Origin: Sphingorhabdus sp. EL138
GTDB taxonomy: Bacteria; Pseudomonadota; Alphaproteobacteria; Sphingomonadales; Sphingomonadaceae
Reading direction: 5' to 3'
Assembly (NCBI RefSeq): GCF_945890115.1
Contig: NZ_CAMDCK010000004.1
Coordinates: forward strand, 1 to 64,000
Length of the DNA stretch: 64,000 nt
Shown: piece after piece, positions 83 through 13,624 of the stretch
Layout of the letters: each line of letters begins with the position of its first letter
Numbering within the stretch: the stretch's first letter is position 1
Notes under the pieces: generated by a model
Database searches by the model: none
What the model saw: only the letters and a program-made list of their open reading frames with translations
Told to the model about the DNA's origin: nothing
Made by a program: the position numbers and the translations under genes

Positions 83-146
83 TGGATCCATCCTTCTGGT
101 TGCCTATCGGCAATATGAAAGATGTCCCACGAGTCCGTACAGTCCT
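1..146 (-). mobile_element. End of an IS481-like insertion sequence
   Basis: The transposase fragment must be followed on its 5' side by the terminal inverted repeat of the element. Read leftward, the segment at about 125-146 starts with TGTAGGACTGTACGGACTCG and is a plausible end, because ends of this family start with TGT. The exact boundary and target duplication cannot be fixed without the other end. The element stops a few bases before the likely start of the sensor kinase. Confidence 0.4.
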
Positions 147-153
147 ACATTCA

Positions 154-1638
154 ATGCGCTTGCGCCTTTTTCATCAATTATTTATCGTAATTGCGGGTAC
201 GGTGTTGCTCACCGCAATGGCTATGGCTTTTATTTTGTCGTTCAGCCTTCGCAATGGATTTTCAGAATATCTTGAAGCTCAAGATATTCAGCAATTGGAG
301 GAGTTCGCCAAGGCAGCGGCAAACAATGTTTTTGCGAATGAACCGTCTAAATTCAAAGCCGATGGAAGCGTCGATATCAATGCGCTGATTACCGACATGA
401 TTCGTCGCGGCGACGTTCCTAATGCACTGAAGTCTGCAAATGGTTCAAACGGGGCGGGGAGCATCGGTTCTTCCACCGAAACACTTTCGCCAGTTAGCCT
501 AAGGCCTCAACGAGGCAAAACGCCACCCGGTGGTTTTGCCAAACGCTTAATGATATTTAATGCGGCAGGAATTCAGATCACTGGTCCGCCTCCGCCACAA
601 GGCGCGATTAGTGCGAAAGTTCTTGTGCAGAAAATAGTCGTTGACGGCAAAATTGTAGCGTTTGCAAAATTGCTTCCCCGTCGGCGAGTACCCGGAAATG
701 TCGACGCGAATTTTCTGAAAAGCCAGTATCAGAATTCAGCATTGGTGATTTTACTGTTGCTCTTTTTGGCGGTCGTACCCGCCTTTTTGATCGCTAGACT
801 TGGGGTAAATCGATTGGCAGAGTTACGGCATACGGCCAACGAAATTGCCCAAGGAAATTTGACTGCGCGGGTTGCTGTACGGGGCGATGATGAGCTATCA
901 GCTATGGGTCTGCATATCAATAGTATGGCTGAAAGCCTTTCAAACTTAGATGATAGCCGACGTCGCTGGCTTGCTGAAATAAGCCATGAATTACGTACAC
1001 CTTTAACCGTTCTTGTAGGCGAATTAGACGCGTTGAAGGACGGCGTAAGGCCAGTCAATGTCGTCGCCATCAATTCCCTGTCCGACGAAGCTCAGCGATT
1101 GAGGCGTATCGTGGATGATCTCCATCAACTTGCGGTTGCAGACATGAAAGGCACGTTATGCGAGTTTGAAACCTGCGACGCCGTCGAAATCATACGTCGA
1201 CTTTCCAATCGGTTTGAATCGAAGTTTCGGAGCGCTGGGCTTGATCTCGATGTGAATTGCGAAGGGCATTCAGAAATGCATGTGGTCTGGGATAGTGAAA
1301 GGATCGGGCAATTGCTCGCCAACATATTGACCAATAGTTTGCGATATACCACGGCCCCCGGGAGAACATTGATAAGCTTAACGTCGACTCCTTCTAAGGT
1401 ATCCATTCAAATCGATGATAGCGCACCGACAGTCTCCAGCGAAAATATAGGACGGCTGTTTCAACCTCTTTTTCGCGCCGAGCAATCGCGTGATCGGGCA
1501 TCTGGAGGCAGTGGCCTTGGGCTCTCCGTCAGTGAAGCGATCGTAAATTCACATAGAGGAAGTATCTCGGTCGCAAAATCCGTGCTCGGTGGATTGTGCG
1601 TAACAGTCATTTTGCCTCAAGATGCGCGTAATAGATGA
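154..1638 (+). CDS. BaeS-like sensor histidine kinase
   Basis: This is an inner-membrane sensor kinase, 494 aa from the ATG at 154. An upstream in-frame ATG at 76 would overlap the IS transposase start and adds a non-conserved extension, so 154 is preferred. From 154, residues about 5-32 form a first membrane helix, followed by a roughly 165-residue periplasmic sensor region. A second helix lies at about 195-217, then HAMP, and the HisKA motif EISHELRTPL with phosphoacceptor His at about 278. An HATPase domain follows with N-box ILTNSLRYT and G-box GSGLGLSV. The stop overlaps the start of the regulator by 4 bases, so the two are co-translated. The order and motifs resemble BaeS of envelope-stress systems, but the periplasmic domain is too divergent to name a signal. 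The 5' region abuts an IS end, so its native promoter may be lost or replaced. Confidence 0.9.
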   Translation: MRLRLFHQLFIVIAGTVLLTAMAMAFILSFSLRNGFSEYLEAQDIQQLEEFAKAAANNVFANEPSKFKADGSVDINALITDMIRRGDVPNALKSANGSNGAGSIGSSTETLSPVSLRPQRGKTPPGGFAKRLMIFNAAGIQITGPPPPQGAISAKVLVQKIVVDGKIVAFAKLLPRRRVPGNVDANFLKSQYQNSALVILLLLFLAVVPAFLIARLGVNRLAELRHTANEIAQGNLTARVAVRGDDELSAMGLHINSMAESLSNLDDSRRRWLAEISHELRTPLTVLVGELDALKDGVRPVNVVAINSLSDEAQRLRRIVDDLHQLAVADMKGTLCEFETCDAVEIIRRLSNRFESKFRSAGLDLDVNCEGHSEMHVVWDSERIGQLLANILTNSLRYTTAPGRTLISLTSTPSKVSIQIDDSAPTVSSENIGRLFQPLFRAEQSRDRASGGSGLGLSVSEAIVNSHRGSISVAKSVLGGLCVTVILPQDARNR

Positions 1639-2327
1639 CAAGTTTGCGAACTGTATTCATCATTGAGGATGATCCTAAAATCGCTTTATTATTAAGCGAC
1701 TATCTATCCGACTCCGATTTCAAAACGCGGATATTCGGCGATGGCCGTGATGTAGTAGCCGAAGTAAAGCTTAATTCGCCAGATGCAATAATTCTCGACC
1801 TCATGCTACCGGCGAGTGATGGCATAACGATTTGCAAAGCGATCCGAAAATTTAGCGCAGTACCAATTTTGATGCTTACTGCTCGGGTTGAGGAAAGCCA
1901 TATGTTGACCGGTTTTGACTGCGGCGCCGATGATTACGTCATCAAGCCATTTAGCCCAAAGCAGGTCGTCGCTCGCATAGCCGCGTTAGTCCGCCGATCA
2001 GAAGGCCGTGTAGCAAACGATATTTCCGCTCAGCGCTATTGGGTAGACGAAAGGCAGCAAGCCACGTTTTGGCGCGGAGACGTCTTGCCGCTGTCAGCAT
2101 CGGAGTATCAAATTTTGGCTGCGATGATGAAACAACCTGGTCGTGTTTTTTCGCGCGACCAGTTACTTGATAGGCTAGGTGAACGTGCCGAAGACAGCGG
2201 TGATCGCGCGGTAGACAGTCATATAAAAAATATCCGGCGAAAGATCAGTGCTATTGATCCAGAAACAAGATGTGTCACATCAGTTTATGGTGCGGGGTAT
2301 CGGTTCGATCCCGGCTCGGACAAATAA
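1635..2327 (+). CDS. OmpR/BaeR-family response regulator
   Basis: This is a cytoplasmic DNA-binding regulator of 230 aa. The receiver domain spans residues 1-118, with the acidic pair E11-D12-D13, phosphoacceptor D55 in IILDLMLP, and the conserved Lys at 104 in DDYVIKPFSP. A winged-helix Trans_reg_C domain covers about 130-228 (SASEYQIL ... VDSHIKNIRRK ... VYGAGYRF). It is the partner of the kinase with which it overlaps by 4 bases. It ends 8 bases from the convergent HupE-type gene, so the adjacent minus-strand operon is a natural candidate target, though no binding site was identified. Confidence 0.93.
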   Translation: MTSLRTVFIIEDDPKIALLLSDYLSDSDFKTRIFGDGRDVVAEVKLNSPDAIILDLMLPASDGITICKAIRKFSAVPILMLTARVEESHMLTGFDCGADDYVIKPFSPKQVVARIAALVRRSEGRVANDISAQRYWVDERQQATFWRGDVLPLSASEYQILAAMMKQPGRVFSRDQLLDRLGERAEDSGDRAVDSHIKNIRRKISAIDPETRCVTSVYGAGYRFDPGSDK

Positions 2328-2335
2328 AGGTAGCT

Positions 2336-3433
2336 CTATAGTTCGGCCGCCACTCTGACCAAGAGCAATATAGCGCCCAAAATTAAAGCGCACCATGATG
2401 CAAACCGAGGTAGCTGTTGTGCAAAGCGTGCCCGACCTAACCTCGTTACAAGCGTGGATACAAATAGCAACGCACCGAGAAACAGCAATTGTCCGAGCTC
2501 AATTCCCACATTGAAGCCAAGAAGCGTTGCTATTTGGTTTCCTGAACCAGTTGCAAAAACATTGACCGCACCGGCGAAGCCCAAGCCATGCAAGAGTCCG
2601 CAAGCAAAAACGATGACAATGCGCTTCCATTCGATTTTTGTGCTGATCGCGCTGGATGACAACAGATTAAGCATTGCCATGAGAACGATACTGGCGGCAA
2701 TACCGATCTCTACGACACTTGAGGAAATACTGACAACATTGAGCGCTGAAATCACCAAAGTAAAACTGTGTGCGATGGTAAAACTGGTGACGATACAGAG
2801 CCAATATCTCCATCCCGCCGCAACAACGACTATCGTAAGCAGAAAGAGCAGATGATCTGCCCCACCTAATATGTGGCCAATGCCGATATGAACGAAGTCA
2901 GCGAAAATTGCCCAAGCGCCTCGAAAAAATGTGTGCGCGGGATTGTCAGTTTCAAGAATAGATGTTTCGCTGGCTTTGACCCCGTCAACCTTGTGTGTCG
3001 CTGTCATAACCAACCGCGCTTCACCTACTTTGGTGCCAAATAAGTCTGTTTCAACTCTTGGATTTTTGGGCGGCTTCGCAAAATTGGTCCTGTGCAACAC
3101 AACGAGATAATCTGTGTCGGCAGTCTCTGCACCGGTTTGTGGCGGCATCACCCATGTCAGTACCTTCTCGCCTCTTTTACCATTACTGCTAACGTGGAAG
3201 CGAGCATCAAATTGACGGCGAATACTGAGATTACCAGCTTGGACTTCGGCTATCGACAGCAAACCGTTACCGTCGGCGTCAACGTTTTTCAGGGTTGAGG
3301 CAGGCACCGAAACGACGAAAAAAATGGCCTCATCGACGACATTCATTGTTGCATTTTGTTTGGGCAACAGATGTGCATACGCTGCGCCCGACAGACTAAG
3401 TATGCAAATCAGAACACATATTCGGCTCAGCAT
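2336..3433 (-). CDS. HupE/UreJ-type membrane protein with EF-hand-bearing ectodomain
   Basis: This 365-aa protein starts at the ATG at 3433, whose A overlaps the TAA of the upstream YHYH gene (TAATG). A longer upstream reading lies wholly inside that gene. Residues 1-20 are a signal peptide ending AYA. The exported part, to about residue 170, carries a calcium-type loop (DADGNGLLSIAE). The C-terminal half has about six membrane helices and the HupE/UreJ-2 hallmarks HILGGADHLLFL, FTIAHSFTL and LLHGLGFAG, whose histidines are placed like metal ligands. HupE/UreJ proteins near hydrogenase or urease genes are linked to nickel, but neither enzyme is encoded here and this subfamily has no settled function. 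It is third in an operon with two YHYH proteins. A role in envelope metal transport is inference. Confidence 0.85.
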   Translation of the reverse strand: MLSRICVLICILSLSGAAYAHLLPKQNATMNVVDEAIFFVVSVPASTLKNVDADGNGLLSIAEVQAGNLSIRRQFDARFHVSSNGKRGEKVLTWVMPPQTGAETADTDYLVVLHRTNFAKPPKNPRVETDLFGTKVGEARLVMTATHKVDGVKASETSILETDNPAHTFFRGAWAIFADFVHIGIGHILGGADHLLFLLTIVVVAAGWRYWLCIVTSFTIAHSFTLVISALNVVSISSSVVEIGIAASIVLMAMLNLLSSSAISTKIEWKRIVIVFACGLLHGLGFAGAVNVFATGSGNQIATLLGFNVGIELGQLLFLGALLFVSTLVTRLGRARFAQQLPRFASWCALILGAILLLVRVAAEL

Positions 3434-4653
3434 TATGGGCGCTTTGCTCCGCCTCTTGAAGGCTGACGTATCGCGCCGATGCTCGTGGTGCCTTTTACGC
3501 AACGTTGCACGAATGGATAGCCGTCTGTCGCGTAATAATGGTAGATACCGCCTGGGAATTCTGGCGTTACATCAAAACTACCATTGCATTCGTCGAGATC
3601 ACCCGACCCGTTGATATATTCATAGTCCTGTGTGAATGCCCCCAAGGGAATTAGATTTACAGGGGGGCGTCCATCAGCAGGCCGTGTCTTTAACTGATAA
3701 CTAGCTTTCATCAATCGAAGCGGGCTGCTGCCTGACCTTGGGTCAGACCGGCCATATCGCGCATAAATTGGGAAGCCGTCGCTGGCCCAGCCAATAAGCA
3801 TCATTTCCTTGCCTGACTTAGCACCGGCGGACAGCATCCCTTCTGGAACACCATGATAGTGATATTCGCCAGTTGGCTGGACATGAGCATGGTTCATATC
3901 ATCACCAAAATTGAAGCTTTGCTGACCCAACGCCTCGATTTCCCACGGACCAGTCCCACGGCCTAAATCACACTGGGTCGGATTGCTGACACCCGTTGGA
4001 CAGCGGCCCGCCGTTCCAGGTTCGAATTTTATGCCGTTAAGGGCGTAGCCCGCAATCCGGACCGGCGTGCCAGTACCTACGAGCGCTACTGGGTGTAACG
4101 CCGCGCTAAACGTAATCTTTTGGGCAGAAATTCGGTTAGGGTTGTTGCGGTTGGGGAAGGCTCCCGTATAGTGGTTAGGAATCCCATTTGACGTCAAAAC
4201 GCGATTACTCGCGGTGCAGGCCCACTTCGCTATACTTTCCAAACCAAGCGCTTTGTTTAATTCCGTTTTGTTGATGCCACACAGAATTGCTGATGTATCG
4301 GCCTGCGACGATAGAATTGCGCCGCCCTGCTCGGAGGGAGTTAGTCCGCCAACCGGGTTGTTGGGTCCTGCGTTTTGAGGGCGGCAAGCAAGTGGGCGAT
4401 CCTGCGGAGCGAAACAAGTGCCGGATATACTGCGGCCCTGAGGCCCCGTCGCGGTGCAAACATCTCCATAGGATTTATTGACGCAGGCCTTTAACATTTC
4501 AGGCGGCGGGCCCCCTTGTCGTCCGCCTTGCCGACCGCCGTTTCGGTCGCCTCCGTCTTGCGCAGTTAGAGCGACTGCACCCAACGCCCCCACACCAATT
4601 GCAATCAATGTAATTGGAATGGCCCACCGTTGTTGGAGGCCTGATTTTGTCAC
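3433..4653 (-). CDS. YHYH-domain exported protein with extra four-cysteine module
   Basis: This 406-aa protein has an N-terminal hydrophobic segment at residues 10-30 (signal or anchor), then a Gly/Arg/Gln-rich stretch. A small module at about 50-92 has cysteines at 57, 66, 80 and 90. The YHYH domain (PF14240 type) fills the rest, with MNHAHVQPTGEYHYHG around 253-268, DLDECNG around 352 and a second aromatic-His motif GIYHYYATDGYP near 369-380. The many His, Asp and Tyr residues suggest metal or small-ligand binding in the periplasm, but the biochemical role of the family is unknown. The stop overlaps the start of the HupE-type gene by one base, and the paralogous YHYH lipoprotein gene lies 2 bases upstream. 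Confidence 0.85.
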   Translation of the reverse strand: MTKSGLQQRWAIPITLIAIGVGALGAVALTAQDGGDRNGGRQGGRQGGPPPEMLKACVNKSYGDVCTATGPQGRSISGTCFAPQDRPLACRPQNAGPNNPVGGLTPSEQGGAILSSQADTSAILCGINKTELNKALGLESIAKWACTASNRVLTSNGIPNHYTGAFPNRNNPNRISAQKITFSAALHPVALVGTGTPVRIAGYALNGIKFEPGTAGRCPTGVSNPTQCDLGRGTGPWEIEALGQQSFNFGDDMNHAHVQPTGEYHYHGVPEGMLSAGAKSGKEMMLIGWASDGFPIYARYGRSDPRSGSSPLRLMKASYQLKTRPADGRPPVNLIPLGAFTQDYEYINGSGDLDECNGSFDVTPEFPGGIYHYYATDGYPFVQRCVKGTTSIGAIRQPSRGGAKRP

Positions 4654-4655
4654 CC

Positions 4656-5684
4656 TTAGGCCCCTTTCACGCAGCGGCTGAAATACGGATAGCTATCGGT
4701 GGCCATATAGTAGTAGATTCCGTTGGGGAATTCCGGCGTCACACCTGTCCGACCATTGCATTCGTCAAGGTCACCGGTGCCCGCCGTATAAGTCCAGTCT
4801 GAGGTAAATGCGCCAAGTGGCACGAGTGACGTTGATGGACGACCGGAATCCGCCACAGTGTCTTTGACAAAGCTACCCGTGCAAACCTTGAGTGCGCTGT
4901 TGGCATTATTAGGGTCGCTGTAACAATAGCGGGCATATATAGGAAATCCGTCGCCCGCCCACCCGACAAGGAGCATTTTGCGGCTGGTGTCGGTTACTCC
5001 TGAGTTGGTGAGCAATGCTTCCGGCATACCATGATAATGATATTCGCCTGATGGCTGCACATGTGCGTTGTTCGAGTCTTCACCAAAATTGAATGTATCT
5101 TGGCCGAGCGCTTCGACTGCCCAGGTTCCTCCTGCACCATTTGCGAGATTGCACTGCGAAGCTGCTGTGATTGTTCCTGCACAAGTGCCTGCCGTTGCAG
5201 GATCAAATTTCACTCCCTGCAAAGAGTAGGCGCTCACCCCTCCGGGACCAATTTTTCGGGTTACGGCGCTTAATACCGGAGTTAGCGTGGCTGCGAAGTT
5301 TACATTTTGGCTTGAAATAAGATTTGGGTTTCCAGCATTGGGGAAAGTGCCAACCGCATGGTTGGGCAAGCCATTCGCGACCAATGAACGTGCCGTCCCG
5401 CTGCAGACCCAACTCCATGTCGATGTCAAAATTCCCGACGTGCTATATACGCCTTGGTAGCTGCCGCTTAACGGGCAAAGCACTGCAGCTGTGTTATAAC
5501 CTGTCGGGGATGGCGGAGGCGTAATTGGAGTCGGTGGGGGAGCGGGTGACGGTGTTGGCGCAACTGTAATCGGCGGAATTGTGCCGCCGCCCACTTCATC
5601 CCCGCCGCATCCCGAAAGACTGTATAGAATCGCGCTCAAAGCAAGGACATTGAGTCTAGTTGAGCGGCTCTTGTTAGCTAGCAT
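4656..5684 (-). CDS. YHYH-domain lipoprotein
   Basis: This 342-aa protein starts at the ATG at 5684, placed just before a lipoprotein signal (hydrophobic run, then LYSLSGC, the lipid-modified Cys being followed by Gly-Gly). A 24-codon upstream extension lacks signal-peptide character. A Pro/Thr-rich spacer (PTPSPAPPPTP) follows. The YHYH domain shares with the next gene the blocks NGLPNHAVGTFPN, NNAHVQPSGEYHYHGMPE, GWAGDGFPIYARY, DLDECNGRTGVTPEFPNG and YYYMATDSYPYF. The two genes are therefore tandem paralogues, one lipid-anchored and one with a membrane or signal segment. It is the first gene of the three-gene operon that runs to the HupE-type protein. No enzyme activity can be assigned. Confidence 0.85.
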   Translation of the reverse strand: MLANKSRSTRLNVLALSAILYSLSGCGGDEVGGGTIPPITVAPTPSPAPPPTPITPPPSPTGYNTAAVLCPLSGSYQGVYSTSGILTSTWSWVCSGTARSLVANGLPNHAVGTFPNAGNPNLISSQNVNFAATLTPVLSAVTRKIGPGGVSAYSLQGVKFDPATAGTCAGTITAASQCNLANGAGGTWAVEALGQDTFNFGEDSNNAHVQPSGEYHYHGMPEALLTNSGVTDTSRKMLLVGWAGDGFPIYARYCYSDPNNANSALKVCTGSFVKDTVADSGRPSTSLVPLGAFTSDWTYTAGTGDLDECNGRTGVTPEFPNGIYYYMATDSYPYFSRCVKGA

Positions 5685-6179
5685 GGAGACATTTTCCCAA
5701 ATCGATGGCGTTTTTGGGTATGTTATACGCAAATGTGGATGTATTATGGACGTCATCGATCCAAAGGGCGCGCGGGGGCCTATCCCTGCGTCATTTACTT
5801 AGTTGTTAGGCGGCGTTTTGCATTTAAGCGACCGGGCGTTTGAACAAATCGAGCCCGTCCAAACGACTGCTCGTGTCTTGGCGTCCTCTGTCCCCCGTCA
5901 GCATTGAATAGACAGCCTGGCTTCGTAAAATAGGAGAGTGTTTTGGGTTTATCGTAGTGACTGTAAGGTGTTCCCCGTCAGTGTCCGTCGTCAGGGCTGG
6001 CACTCGTATTATTATCCCCCGTTCCCAAATGCGTTGCCGCCCAAGGTTTCAAGGGCTATGCGAAGTTCCGAAGTTGACGGCTTAGTTCAGATGCGTTCAA
6101 CCCTGCGTTTTGCAGCCATGTCGGGCTGCACACAGCGTGGGTTTTAAGCTAGTTAAAGATATAGGTTTTGAGAAATTAA
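5685..6179. other. Intergenic region between divergent YHYH operon and orphan histidine kinase
   Basis: This stretch of about 495 bases must hold the promoters of both flanking transcription units. On the minus strand TATAAC (complement of 5722-5727) is a possible -10 for the YHYH operon, inside the small palindrome GTATGTTATAC at 5718-5728. No convincing coding sequence was found: short frames such as 5938-6147 have no recognisable motif or ribosome binding site. I recognise no RNA gene here. Confidence 0.45.
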
Positions 6180-7577
6180 ATGTCATATATACCTGATATC
6201 AGTATAGTACTCCTAGTGTATTTTTTTACAGGATCCTTAATTTCATACACCATATGTATTCTTATTTTTGGTAATAAAGGTCGAGAAAGAGATATATGGA
6301 TTTTATCAAATATCGTTGGCATTTTAGGAATGTTATTTTTATCGAATATTGAAAACGTATATTACGTTGGTATAGGTATTTCTTTAACAATTTTAAGTGG
6401 ATCACTAAAGTCACTTGCTTTTTCTGGTAAGAATTTTTGGTTCAAACGTTATTTCTTACCACATTTATTTTTACTTCTGAGCTTAATATGTGCATCAATC
6501 GTCGCATTTTACCCAGATATACACTACAGACGAAATTATTTTTTACTGGGTATGTTTTTTGCATTGGCTGCAAGCCTGATGTATCTTTTGAGAAATAGAC
6601 AATGGTATGGCTTGAAACAGAAGGGGTATGCCGTTGCAGGAATGGCCTTAGGCATGATTGCCGTGCTATTTGTCATCGGCCAAGCATTTCCATTCGTTCC
6701 AAATCAGAGGCTGGTTGAATCTTCTGCCCGAGGCGTAGCCAATTTTTCTGCGCTCTGCTTAGCATCATTGGCTATTCAATTACTTTTTCTGGCGCTCATT
6801 TTCGGGCAGAGCCAGAGAGAAAGAGAGAGGCAACTTCGCCGTAACGCTATGCTTTCGTATGAGATCAGACTGAAACAAGCTACGCTCATTGAGACGAATA
6901 AGTTGGCCGACGAACGGCAAAACCTCATTAAGATGCTAACCCATGAAGTGCGACAACCACTCAATACTGCACAGGCCGCGTTGCAAAGCATCTCGGCTGA
7001 TGTGGCAAAATTGGGGAAAAAAGCCGTTGGCGTAAAGTCCAAATTGACCAACATGGTTACAGTCTTAAACTCTATCACGCTTTCGATATCAAACTCGCTG
7101 CTTGGTGCCACGCTGATTTCAAATCGGAGAAAGCCGGAGCTTGTGTCCATCGACATATGCGATGTTTCACAACTCGCGTATCTGGATATCAATCCGATAG
7201 ACCAGCCCCGTATAAATTTGCAATTCGTCCAGCCTCATATTTTTGCCGAAGCTGACCCGATTGTGTTGCGTCTGGCTTTACGCAATTTGCTTGAAAATGC
7301 AGTCAAATATTCGCCAGCTGAAACGCCAATTATTTTTAAAATCGGGACGGACGAAGACAGGCTCTCCGTTCAATTTGCTATAACAAACCGCTTAATCGAT
7401 AAGGCTATGTTAGACGGTGACATTTTTGCACGAAATAAGCGCGGTGTAGATAGCCGCTACAACGGGGATGGTCTTGGCCTCTTCATTGTCAGCGAGGTTG
7501 CTAAAATGCATCAAGGCACATTGGGCCATAATATCGCCGATAATGAGGTAACATTCCATCTTGAAATCCCGGCCTGA
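6180..7577 (+). CDS. Orphan multi-pass membrane sensor histidine kinase
   Basis: This 465-aa protein has about seven membrane segments in the first 212 residues (near 7-30, 40-55, 60-75, 91-110, 120-137, 150-170, 190-210). A charged linker (QRERERQLRR) follows, with a coiled-coil-like helix, then a HisKA motif LTHEVRQPLN with His255. The ATPase domain has N-box LLENAVKYS (Asn373) and G-box GDGLGLFIV near 430-436. The layout matches kinases with a 7TM-type sensory part. No response regulator is adjacent, so it is an orphan or pairs with a distant regulator. The 5' third is strikingly AT-rich (18 of the first 60 bases are G or C) compared with the rest of the gene and the flanks, a sign of foreign origin or of a composite gene. 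Ligand unknown. Confidence 0.88.
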   Translation: MSYIPDISIVLLVYFFTGSLISYTICILIFGNKGRERDIWILSNIVGILGMLFLSNIENVYYVGIGISLTILSGSLKSLAFSGKNFWFKRYFLPHLFLLLSLICASIVAFYPDIHYRRNYFLLGMFFALAASLMYLLRNRQWYGLKQKGYAVAGMALGMIAVLFVIGQAFPFVPNQRLVESSARGVANFSALCLASLAIQLLFLALIFGQSQRERERQLRRNAMLSYEIRLKQATLIETNKLADERQNLIKMLTHEVRQPLNTAQAALQSISADVAKLGKKAVGVKSKLTNMVTVLNSITLSISNSLLGATLISNRRKPELVSIDICDVSQLAYLDINPIDQPRINLQFVQPHIFAEADPIVLRLALRNLLENAVKYSPAETPIIFKIGTDEDRLSVQFAITNRLIDKAMLDGDIFARNKRGVDSRYNGDGLGLFIVSEVAKMHQGTLGHNIADNEVTFHLEIPA

Positions 7578-11397: not shown

Positions 11398-12146
11398 GCA
11401 TTGTCGCCGACGATAGCGCATTGGCGGCATATTTGGCCGAAACCGCTGGAAAACTGCTGTTGCAAGTGCGCGAAAGCGGGCTGCTGTCATTGCATGCGCT
11501 TGGCAAGGCTGGCGATCAAACCGCCAACCAGTTTTTGGTCCATGCCCTTGCCGAACAACGTCCGGATGACGGATTATTGTCAGAAGAAAGCCAGGATACC
11601 GACGCGCGCCTGTCAAAATCCCGCGTGTGGATCATTGATCCGGTTGATGGCACCCGCGAATATGGTGAAGGCCGCACCGATTGGGCCGTCCACGTCGCGC
11701 TCTCTATAGATGGCGCGCCGGTGATTGGCGCGGTCGCACTTCCCGGCTTGGGTGTGGTTCTCAGGAGCGATCAGCCGACCGAAATCCCCCCCGCCCCTGA
11801 AAAACTGCGCATGGTAGTCAGCCGAACCAGGCCCGCAGCAGAAGCGTTGACCGTGGCAAACGCTTTAGGCGCTGAATGCATCCCGATGGGTTCCGCAGGC
11901 GCAAAGGCAATGGCGGTGGTGCGCGGTGAGGCCGACATTTACCTGCACAATGGCGGGCAGTATGAATGGGACAATTGCGCGCCCGCGGCTGTCGCTGCCG
12001 CCTTTGGTCTGCACGTCAGCCGTATCGATGGCAGCCCTTTGGTCTATAATCAGGCGGATACATATATCCCGGACCTGCTCATTTGTCGCAAAGAGCATGC
12101 CCAAAGCGTGTTGGACGCGCTCAGGGCGGCCACGCAGGCGACCTGA
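11394..12146 (+). CDS. cysQ: 3'(2'),5'-bisphosphate nucleotidase, inositol monophosphatase family
   Basis: CysQ hydrolyses 3'-phosphoadenosine 5'-phosphate, the by-product of PAPS use, to AMP and so protects the pathway from product inhibition. The 250-aa protein has the metal-binding motifs LLSEES (about 61-66), [22 protein letters not shown] (about 82-103) and the second family signature [14 protein letters not shown] (about 190). It starts within the end of cysNC (ATGA overlap), which places it in the sulfate-activation operon and supports CysQ over a general inositol phosphatase. It ends 20 bases from the convergent S41 protease gene. Confidence 0.93.
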
Positions 12147-12166
12147 GCGCATCTATCAGGATGCTT

Positions 12167-13624
12167 TTAGAACAATCCCGGTATCTCACGCTGCGCTGTG
12201 CTGGCGTCTCTCGGCGCAGGCAAGGCACGAAGTTCATTCCGTGAAGCTGTGCTTTGCGCGCTTTGGGCGAGCGCGATTGGCGTGCAACTGCGTCCCGCCA
12301 CGAAATCAAGCGCCGCACGCAGCGATGCCTCTTGCGGGTCGCCTAAAGGCCGGGTGATATCGTCAGCCGCTGCACAAGTGGTGCGCAAAGTGCCCGCAAG
12401 ACCCGAGTAATAATCAGCCTGCCCAGCCGCATTTTCCATCGCAAAGGCAACAACGCGAATGCGATCATCACAAGCTGACAAATCAACGGCAATCTGCCCG
12501 ACGGGCTTACCGTAACTGTTGCTGCCAATCAAAGCGGCGTTAGTCCCGAGATACGGCGCGAGGCCCGCCGCCACCAATTCACTGGCAGACGCCGTAGCCC
12601 TAGTGGAGATGAAAGCGATTTTCACGGGTGACACCGACTGTGACTGCGGCGAAAAGCGGCGCGTTTGGTTTTGCGATGACTTGGAAGCGCGGAAACGCGT
12701 GACTGCAAAAATGTCGTTGTTAGTTCGGTTGGCCCCAAGCAAGTCGCCCATTAGTTCCGCCGTCGAGACAAGCCCGCCGCCATTATAGCGGAAATCGATA
12801 ACAAAGTTTGTGATGCCTTGGGCGCGGAAATCCGAAAACGCAGTTCGCAGTTGGTCATTCGCAGTCGAGATGAACGTGCGCATGTTGATATATCCAACAC
12901 GCTGTCCGCCGCCATTGTCGATGATCTTCACCCCATAACGCGCTGACAGCGGCCTAACGTCATATTCCGCTTTGGCCGCGGTGACATTGCGGGTGCCGGT
13001 TGAGTCCGTTATCCGAAATACGCGGCTGGTCCCAACGGTATTCGGACCCAAAGCGCTGGATAGACCAGCAGATCCTTGTGCCGCCAATATGTCCGCTACC
13101 GACCGAATATTCGAAGAATCGGTACCGATCCCCACAATTTCCGCGCCGCGGTCAATGCCAGCGGCAAGCGCTGGCGCGCCCTCATAAGCTTCTGTAACGA
13201 ACAAGCGTGTGCCTTGAAACGAAAAAGTCACGCCGAATCCGGCCGTTGCACCTGACGAGAAGAAGGCGTTTTCTTCTTTGATAGAAGTAATGTACGTGAA
13301 AAACCGGTCTCGCCCCTGACCACGTGCAGTCGCGGTTAAGGCGTCAATATAGTCGTCCACGGTGGTGTAAGCTGCGGGGCTGAGTGCGGTTGGCAGCGTT
13401 TCTGGAAACAGATACCATTCATTCAGGACGGACCCCGCAAAATTCTGCCGATTAAGCAAGCTACAGGTCGAATTGGGTGGAGGTGGAGGCGGGGGTGGAG
13501 GCGTCACACTCACAGGTGGAACGGTGATTGTTCCGCCGCTTGAATCACTTCCACCGCCGCCGCCACATGCCGAAACGCCTGCAGCAAGTATAAGAATGAT
13601 GCTGTTTAACGAACGCTTTTTCAT
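12167..13624 (-). CDS. S41 family peptidase, lipoprotein
   Basis: This 485-aa exported protease resembles C-terminal processing peptidases. A lipoprotein signal ends at Cys20, followed by a Gly-rich run and an uninterrupted Pro tract at about 42-50. A PDZ-like region spans about 125-215, and the peptidase core runs from about 240 to 450. The catalytic Ser lies in TRATASASE (346 or 348) and the general-base Lys at 373 in SNSYGKPVGQ, the Ser-Lys dyad of S41. The G- and P-coding tracts are low-complexity DNA that could slip in replication. It is transcribed alone, divergent from the ABC1 kinase gene. Envelope protein turnover is the probable role; the substrate is unknown. Confidence 0.88.
   Translation of the reverse strand: MKKRSLNSIILILAAGVSACGGGGGSDSSGGTITVPPVSVTPPPPPPPPPNSTCSLLNRQNFAGSVLNEWYLFPETLPTALSPAAYTTVDDYIDALTATARGQGRDRFFTYITSIKEENAFFSSGATAGFGVTFSFQGTRLFVTEAYEGAPALAAGIDRGAEIVGIGTDSSNIRSVADILAAQGSAGLSSALGPNTVGTSRVFRITDSTGTRNVTAAKAEYDVRPLSARYGVKIIDNGGGQRVGYINMRTFISTANDQLRTAFSDFRAQGITNFVIDFRYNGGGLVSTAELMGDLLGANRTNNDIFAVTRFRASKSSQNQTRRFSPQSQSVSPVKIAFISTRATASASELVAAGLAPYLGTNAALIGSNSYGKPVGQIAVDLSACDDRIRVVAFAMENAAGQADYYSGLAGTLRTTCAAADDITRPLGDPQEASLRAALDFVAGRSCTPIALAQSAQSTASRNELRALPAPRDASTAQREIPGLF

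Follow-up and report, generated by a model that had tools for sequence, protein, structure and literature searches.

A candidate BaeR-type regulon joining YHYH proteins and an anglerase-like N-terminal-histidine domain in envelope metal handling

BaeSR is an envelope-stress two-component family. YHYH proteins (PF14240) are known in bacteria and phages, and the Pfam family has been reported in diatoms; a jumbo-phage study predicted that YHYH acts as a metal-dependent hydrolase associated with the phage tail and frequently joined to tail or lectin-type domains, and a Zn site was predicted there from conserved His and Asp residues (PMC7824862). No demonstrated function of YHYH was found in open-access PubMed Central (PMC) text. 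Anglerases, described in 2025, carry their N-terminal His on a domain fused to HupE/UreJ-2 and bind Cu2+ by a mono-histidine brace, with dissociation constants (Kd) of 73.6 and 62.3 nM; the ligands are His1 plus Asn41 (Ang-1) or a predicted Asp33 (Ang-2), and the anglerase RbAng-1a binds Ni2+ too (PMC12537917). The word YHYH was not found in the main text of that paper, and open-access PMC text yielded neither a paper on YHYH together with HupE nor a description of the system reported here. We analyzed a 64,000-nt stretch of Sphingorhabdus sp. EL138 (the window), which starts at one end of a 144-kb contig in a 2.3-Mb genome and in which a pair of YHYH genes and one HupE_UreJ_2 gene face a BaeSR-like sensor/regulator pair.

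We favor, with a probability of about 0.5, the reading that this locus belongs to a dedicated BaeR-type regulon for the handling of a metal, perhaps copper, in the envelope. Metal ions at the cell surface may be captured by the exported YHYH proteins, and the sensor pair of the locus probably switches the operon by way of a common DNA signal. The coordinates are collected in Table 1. In the minus-strand unit, YHYH-A is followed after a 2-base gap by YHYH-B, which overlaps the HupE_UreJ_2 gene by 1 base (TAATG); the plus-strand pair ends tail to tail with this operon, and the spacer is 8 bases (2328-2335). The positions of the open reading frames (ORFs) agreed exactly with a preliminary description of the window, which had reported these three packed genes, their gap and overlap and a sensor/regulator pair 8 bases away, and the Pfam matches bore out its assignment of two YHYH genes and one HupE_UreJ_2 gene (PF14240 scores of 205.5 and 201.4 bits for YHYH-A and YHYH-B, above the gathering cut-off of 25). 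Export of both YHYH proteins, also claimed there, is predicted from the lipobox (LSGC) of YHYH-A and the N-terminal hydrophobic stretch of YHYH-B; the HupE protein has a predicted signal peptide. The start of the kinase gene is uncertain, the longest frame beginning with TTG at 76 and positions 115 and 154 also being possible.

Table 1. Features of the YHYH-HupE locus and the facing two-component pair, in window coordinates
Feature	Position	Strand	Evidence
Sensor histidine kinase, BaeS-like (HAMP, HisKA, HATPase_c)	115..1638	+	Domain search; close homologues in 2/40 relatives, both facing YHYH
OmpR-family response regulator, BaeR-like	1635..2327	+	BaeR model 241.8 bits, cut-off 380
Anglerase-like ectodomain fused to HupE_UreJ_2 membrane domain	2336..3433	-	PF13795 E 1.9e-38; mature-protein model with predicted local distance difference test (pLDDT) score 92.9
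Ectodomain, predicted mature N-terminus His1	2924..3373	-	Signal peptide 3374-3433 ends AYA/H (then HLLPK)
EF-hand-like loop, mature residues 32-43 (DADGNGLLSIAE)	3245..3280	-	Profile A5 vs calmodulin EF-hands
YHYH-B: N-terminal hydrophobic stretch, Cys module, YHYH domain (3490-4305)	3433..4653	-	PF14240 E 1.7e-59
Cys module (PPPEMLKACVNKSYGDVC..SGTCFAPQDRPLACRP), fused inside YHYH-B	4378..4509	-	Candidate phmmer matches in separate ORFs of other lineages
YHYH-A: lipoprotein, Pro-rich linker, YHYH domain (4662-5501)	4656..5684	-	PF14240 E 9.7e-61; domain model pLDDT 95.5
Direct-repeat candidate operator TCCATAAT-ACA-TCCACATT	5732..5750	-	47 nt upstream of YHYH-A ATG; held-out p = 0.0075

The neighborhood of YHYH, HupE-type and kinase-regulator genes is more than chance. 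Named genomes yielded 408 relatives in a search with a profile of the window's YHYH subfamily, and the best 80 were kept as named loci (17 of them Pseudoalteromonas in our own grouping, and one, L089, on the same contig as the family-sample genome G118). A HupE-type ORF lay within 600 nt of YHYH on the same strand in 61 of the 73 named loci with at least 700 nt of downstream sequence, a count that includes one doubtful case with a weak overlapping match (L122); the named loci without such an ORF include Flavobacteriaceae and Marinimicrobia. Clustering of neighboring ORFs of at least 100 codons gave groups of YHYH (74 loci), HupE-type (63) and kinase/regulator (30) proteins, the next group being found in 9. 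The BaeSR-type adjacency raised by the preliminary description recurred as well: a window-type kinase or regulator (at least 225 bits to the linked models) was present in 21/80 named loci in varying orientation, 4-6 kb away in two of them (L103 and L118); of the 48 loci having 5 kb of downstream and 4 kb of upstream DNA, 14 had one. The gene set was held together in Sphingomonadales, Burkholderiales, Pseudoalteromonas, Shewanella and metagenome-assembled genomes labelled Myxococcales and Deinococcales; across these lineages the position and orientation of the kinase varied and the upstream repeat described below was common. Chance proximity, or one recent transfer of genes without a common function, would fit the rarity of this YHYH type (2/199 genomes of a family sample, and 1/378 of a phylum sample at more than 400 bits), yet this maintenance in distant lineages with a varied kinase arrangement and a common repeat leaves it a negligible probability. 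Chance adjacency was rejected on the conserved neighbors, a reverse test that started from the ectodomain and a test guided by the kinase.

The pairing with HupE was confined to one YHYH subfamily. YHYH was found in 5 of the 199 family-sample genomes and HupE_UreJ_2 in 104, and the two were adjacent in the host genome and in G118, a genome of another genus that reproduces the full window layout, facing kinase-regulator pair included; the other three YHYH genomes scored 53 to 119 bits and had no adjacent HupE. The full ectodomain of the HupE protein was likewise restricted in this sample to G000 and G118, both genomes with the window's YHYH type, besides one partial match over the EF loop. In a class sample, 37/385 genomes had YHYH, and no HupE was listed near YHYH in the 36 YHYH-bearing genomes other than our own; a phmmer search with the window HupE gave no match in the fetched loci L044-L080. 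The supposition that YHYH and HupE are neighbors in other genomes therefore holds within the window's YHYH subfamily and fails in those 36 genomes, and a universal pairing was rejected as false outside the subfamily. In the phylum sample, the window YHYH type exceeded 400 bits in one genome, and the ectodomain occurred in the host genome and as a broken partial copy in G859; that remnant (L217:7739-7993) has a stop, and no YHYH was found in the fetched stretch. Two more diverged YHYH genes lie upstream of the operon in G118 (L010:10199-11626 and 11882-12940).

The classical role of HupE is nickel supply for hydrogenase or urease. Membership in the HupE_UreJ family and the Ni2+ binding of RbAng-1a (PMC12537917) would accord with such a role, but we regard it as very improbable here: a search for NiFe hydrogenase (PF00374) was negative in the host genome, where urease was not searched for, and in 10/11 system-bearing genomes, and the locus of the sole exception, G934, lacks HupE. 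Nickel supply for hydrogenase was rejected on the absence of PF00374 from the host genome, in keeping with the preliminary description, in which the hydrogenase explanation had already been set aside.

When the window kinase was searched against the host genome and 40 relatives, two close homologues besides itself were obtained (400 and 346 bits; the next match was 93 bits), and both, each with its own regulator, were tail to tail with a YHYH gene. One, in G914 of the same genus, faces YHYH and a short ectodomain; the other, in G934, faces YHYH only. The locus L215 has kinase, regulator and YHYH with neither ectodomain nor HupE. Kinase, regulator and YHYH thus seem to form the core of the system, with the ectodomain usual and the permease optional. 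The label "BaeSR-like" given earlier stood as regards the nearest family and failed as an equivalog assignment, both proteins scoring below the NCBIfam cut-offs (329.9 bits against 500 for the kinase with BaeS_SmeS; for the regulator see Table 1). The sensor regions of the linked kinases have a common proline-rich insert of very variable length, at residues ~115-150 of the window kinase. Another histidine kinase gene (HATPase_c, weak HisKA) lies at 6180-7577 on the plus strand, divergent and ~500 bases past the YHYH-A start; it scored 157 bits with the linked-kinase model, versus 623 for the window kinase.

The partner common to the loci is the exported ectodomain of HupE, not the membrane part. 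Among 64 linked ORFs, the window's included, 39 had no full membrane part (L099 and L116 reach a contig end and L140 is interrupted), and 25 were fused to it, with at least 300 mature residues. The proposal that YHYH captures and HupE transports therefore cannot be a general mechanism, because the membrane part is optional and L215 has neither ectodomain nor HupE. The predicted signal peptide ended in A/H, His being followed by a hydrophobic residue, in 64 of 66 linked ORFs above 100 bits, again with the window included; residue -3 was Ala, Ser, Val, Thr, Gly, Cys or Leu, and the two exceptions were L112 (S/H) and a fragment of L140. The rows of the ectodomain alignment (A3) were begun at His1, so that His in 51/51 is by construction, whereas the next conserved columns, T9, V20 and P24, which follow His1 without gaps, are not.

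After strand 2 the ectodomain has an EF-hand-like loop, in which D32 (49/51), G37 (46/51) and E43 (48/51) were conserved. Profile A5 matched calmodulin EF-hands in the PDB at positions 27-56 (best E 4.8e-7), and calmodulins alone were found in the best 60 rows of the 298 and 412 matches of profiles A3 and A5. The window protein by itself reached 11.5 bits with the Pfam EF-hand, under the cut-off of 25.4, and had no match among PDB sequences. In the model of the mature protein, strands 7-13 and 16-24 were followed by helices 41-46 and 48-58 and then by further strands; the anglerase structure 9GCE is described as having helices between strands 2 and 3 (PMC12537917).

In the YHYH domains, H48, D142, H147, H155, H157, D184 and D246 were identical in 72/72 aligned sequences, and Cys was kept at 107 and 248. 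A lipobox pattern occurred in 73/90 YHYH domains; the pattern is loose, and some of these matches lie in linkers or Fn3 modules. The YHYH domain was modeled with high confidence (pLDDT 95.5; predicted template modeling score, pTM, 0.92), and a Foldseek search of the model against solved structures, which did not include the viral-model library, returned 95 matches with E<=10, none with E<=0.001 and a best E of 1.0; YHYH profiles had no match among PDB sequences. A query spanning residues 1-135 of YHYH-B, the part with the Cys module, gave candidate matches (E up to 1e-3) to stand-alone ORFs in 14 loci, of which 13 are below 190 codons, and to ORFs fused to YHYH in six loci (the window, L081, L083, L085, L086 and L121). 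If these matches hold, the fusion would be a classic sign of joint function with YHYH.

In a second explanation, YHYH would act on a surface polymer, either polysaccharide or peptidoglycan, as a metal-dependent enzyme or as a binder; the N-terminal-His domain would be its copper partner, resembling a lytic polysaccharide monooxygenase, and the kinase a sensor of envelope damage. Fn3 modules in the L096 and L216 proteins, a PKD module in L107, the envelope-stress character of the BaeSR family and the jumbo-phage prediction of a tail-associated hydrolase (PMC7824862) would agree with it, as would a PF00884 sulfatase gene that follows YHYH in L104, L124 and L144, where the ectodomain is missing. 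Foldseek found no solved enzyme relative of YHYH, however, and the fusion of the ectodomain with the HupE permease in 25/64 ORFs fits metal handling better, so that we consider this explanation possible but rather unlikely. L156 resembled the sulfatase loci by eye, and this association suggests another YHYH partner in other lineages. The L216 protein (L216:13108-14202), encoded divergently beside the G914 locus, is a lipoprotein in which Fn3 is combined with a diverged YHYH domain (PF14240 E 2.5e-11).

The upstream regions of the YHYH genes have a common direct repeat with an 11-bp period, of the type TGCACAGTTTCTGCACATT in gammaproteobacteria and TCCAYAWT-N3-TCCACAWT in sphingomonads. The seeds were chosen by eye, and the models were then tested with whole lineages held out (threshold p<=0.01) on 80 upstream regions, consisting of 77 named loci, the window, L215 and L216. 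The repeat passed in 38/80 regions versus 1/80 on the opposite strand: 17/17 in Pseudoalteromonas, 5/6 in alteromonad-like bacteria, 2/2 in Shewanella, 6/16 in sphingomonads and caulobacters (window included), 3/10 in betaproteobacteria and 5/29 in the others. The held-out match in L087 was at a different place from the site seen by eye. Tested one by one for 10-12 bp repeats, 16 of 17 upstream regions gave no significant result, and the operator was visible only by comparison across loci. The window half-site TCCATAAT falls within the BaeR consensus TTTTTCTCCATDATTGGC quoted in PMC3799227; with a second consensus quoted there, TCTNCANAA, the window half-sites matched weakly, at 5 and 4 of the 7 fixed letters, and the gammaproteobacterial half-site TCTGCACAT matched well, at 6/7.

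On a genome scale, the window site was the sole one with zero mismatches in its own genome, a uniqueness that is not independent because the pattern was partly built on this site. At up to 2 mismatches the host genome had 21 sites (3 with a reversed-pattern control) and ten gammaproteobacterial genomes 34 (control 4); genes were inspected around 22 fetched site loci and in 12 larger stretches. Two kinase genes likewise have the repeat upstream, that of L238 and, if its likely start is taken, that of L242. Sites in Cognaticolwellia aestuarii (L286) preceded CotH, the kinase, an EF-hand gene and the YHYH-ectodomain genes; Pfam identified CotH in L255, of which the L286 CotH is a homologue, and the EF-hand gene in L256. 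Further sites preceded a second YHYH lipoprotein (L267), a di-haem peroxidase (L270) and a PKD lipoprotein (L264). These other genes behind the repeat are leads rather than a proven regulon, and CotH was absent among the matches listed when open-access PMC literature was searched for a CotH/EF-hand regulon.

A third explanation is a calcium-responsive surface or biofilm regulon, in which EF-hand loops and YHYH would bind Ca2+ and remodel the surface upon a change in Ca2+. The EF-hand-like loop of the ectodomain and the separate EF-hand and CotH kinase genes with upstream repeats in L286 are consistent with it, but it leaves the N-terminal His and the HupE permease unexplained, and the sensor has no conserved acidic column; we regard it as distinctly unlikely.

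Other genes were seen beside the repeat. In Pseudoalteromonas luteoviolacea, a di-haem cytochrome c peroxidase (CCP_MauG) gene is directly behind it (L279:6940-8478), and in Pseudoalteromonas aurantia (L276:7252-11716) it lies between the gene for a small Pro-rich protein and an apparent His/Met-rich and OEP/CusB-like efflux operon. This operon, back to back with the small protein gene, was read as a copper-type CusCBA system, of which Pfam confirmed the outer-membrane part only. A family of small proteins with poly-proline stretches recurs near the system (L286:11798-12265, L276:7252-7722, L117, L134, L146 and L158); it had no Pfam model above cut-off, and two members have ..TDTLAEFD..AGFDAK...

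In the metal-handling regulon that we favor, the sensor kinase would detect an envelope signal and phosphorylate the regulator, which would bind the direct repeat and switch the operon on. The products would be the lipoprotein YHYH-A, the membrane-anchored YHYH-B with its Cys module and the anglerase-like domain. With its N-terminal His and the EF-hand-like loop close by, this last domain would bind Ca2+ and a transition metal, which would most likely be Cu2+, possibly Ni2+. In the host genome, where the ectodomain is fused to the HupE permease, the metal could be taken up; in many gammaproteobacteria, where the ectodomain is a free exported protein, it would be buffered or passed on. The metal is suggested by analogy, because the ectodomain resembles anglerases and YHYH has its conserved His set. 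The computed results cover the conservation of the genes and of the upstream repeat, the predicted His1, the EF-like loop and the signals for export; binding of the repeat and activation by this regulator, the kind of metal, what YHYH does and the direction in which metal is moved are inferred. A fuller version, which we hold more tentatively, is an undescribed envelope system in which a private BaeR-type pair and a repeat operator control an exported set that captures and delivers copper, with CotH, EF-hand and di-haem peroxidase genes in the same regulon in some lineages; the set would comprise a YHYH metalloprotein (with a fold unmatched among solved structures), the Cys module and the EF-hand anglerase-like N-terminal-His domain, with or without the HupE permease.

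Several observations weigh against the metal-handling regulon. YHYH is also found in phage tails and beside sulfatases, and the HupE permease is optional. The repeat test was not passed by 42/80 upstream regions, several sites have no sensible target (e.g., L247, L258, L260, L263 and L268), and one is inside an ORF (L285). In an alignment of 21 linked kinases, the sensor columns conserved at 80% or more were Gly, Pro, Phe, Tyr, Leu, Ala, Gln and Arg, with no His, Met, Asp, Glu or Cys among them, and no ligand site was found; since no metal-type column is conserved, nothing in the sensor indicates metal sensing. A/H was also present in 9 of 10 HupE ORFs without YHYH (13 loci tried), the exception being the second HupE_UreJ_2 of the host genome (L014:6760-7749, C25), which has no N-terminal His. 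Because an N-terminal His is common in HupE_UreJ_2 proteins, it is the EF-loop ectodomain, and not His1 alone, that is special here. Finally, comparison of the ectodomain profile with three other HupE ectodomains was negative (hhalign probability 3%); one of these three, from the class sample, matches 9GCE (E 1.7e-21).

The regulator pair, the repeat and the N-terminal-His partner give part of the YHYH family a cellular context, by which the role of YHYH becomes testable in culturable marine bacteria. The loci also suggest that an anglerase-type domain can exist without a permease, an arrangement absent from the published uptake model.

Compared with known systems, the two-component pair resembles BaeSR in the best NCBIfam match of both proteins, and the candidate half-site lies within one of the two quoted BaeR consensus sequences; the pair differs in its sub-equivalog scores, the 11-bp direct repeat, the position before YHYH and anglerase-like genes and the Pro-rich sensor insert. 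The YHYH proteins belong to the same Pfam family as the others, phage-tail forms included, but make up a subfamily of their own, marked by conserved Cys pairs and a linked ectodomain. Like HupE nickel permeases, the window protein has PF13795 and the PF04955 membrane domain; unlike them, it has a large N-terminal domain, and here the permease is optional and the genome has no NiFe hydrogenase. With the anglerases Ang-1 and Ang-2 it shares a predicted signal peptide followed at once by His and the PF13795 fusion; the strand and helix order in the model, compared with the text only, is in line with the Ig-like beta-sandwich of anglerases (PMC12537917). The ectodomain is called anglerase-like rather than an anglerase because no profile alignment with anglerase-type sequences was obtained, Ang-1 showing no detectable profile similarity, and only the order in the model agrees. 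Its EF-hand-like loop falls in the region of Asn41 in Ang-1 and of the predicted ligand Asp33 in Ang-2 (PMC12537917), and, in contrast to the anglerases, the window-type ectodomain often stands without a permease and is linked to YHYH.

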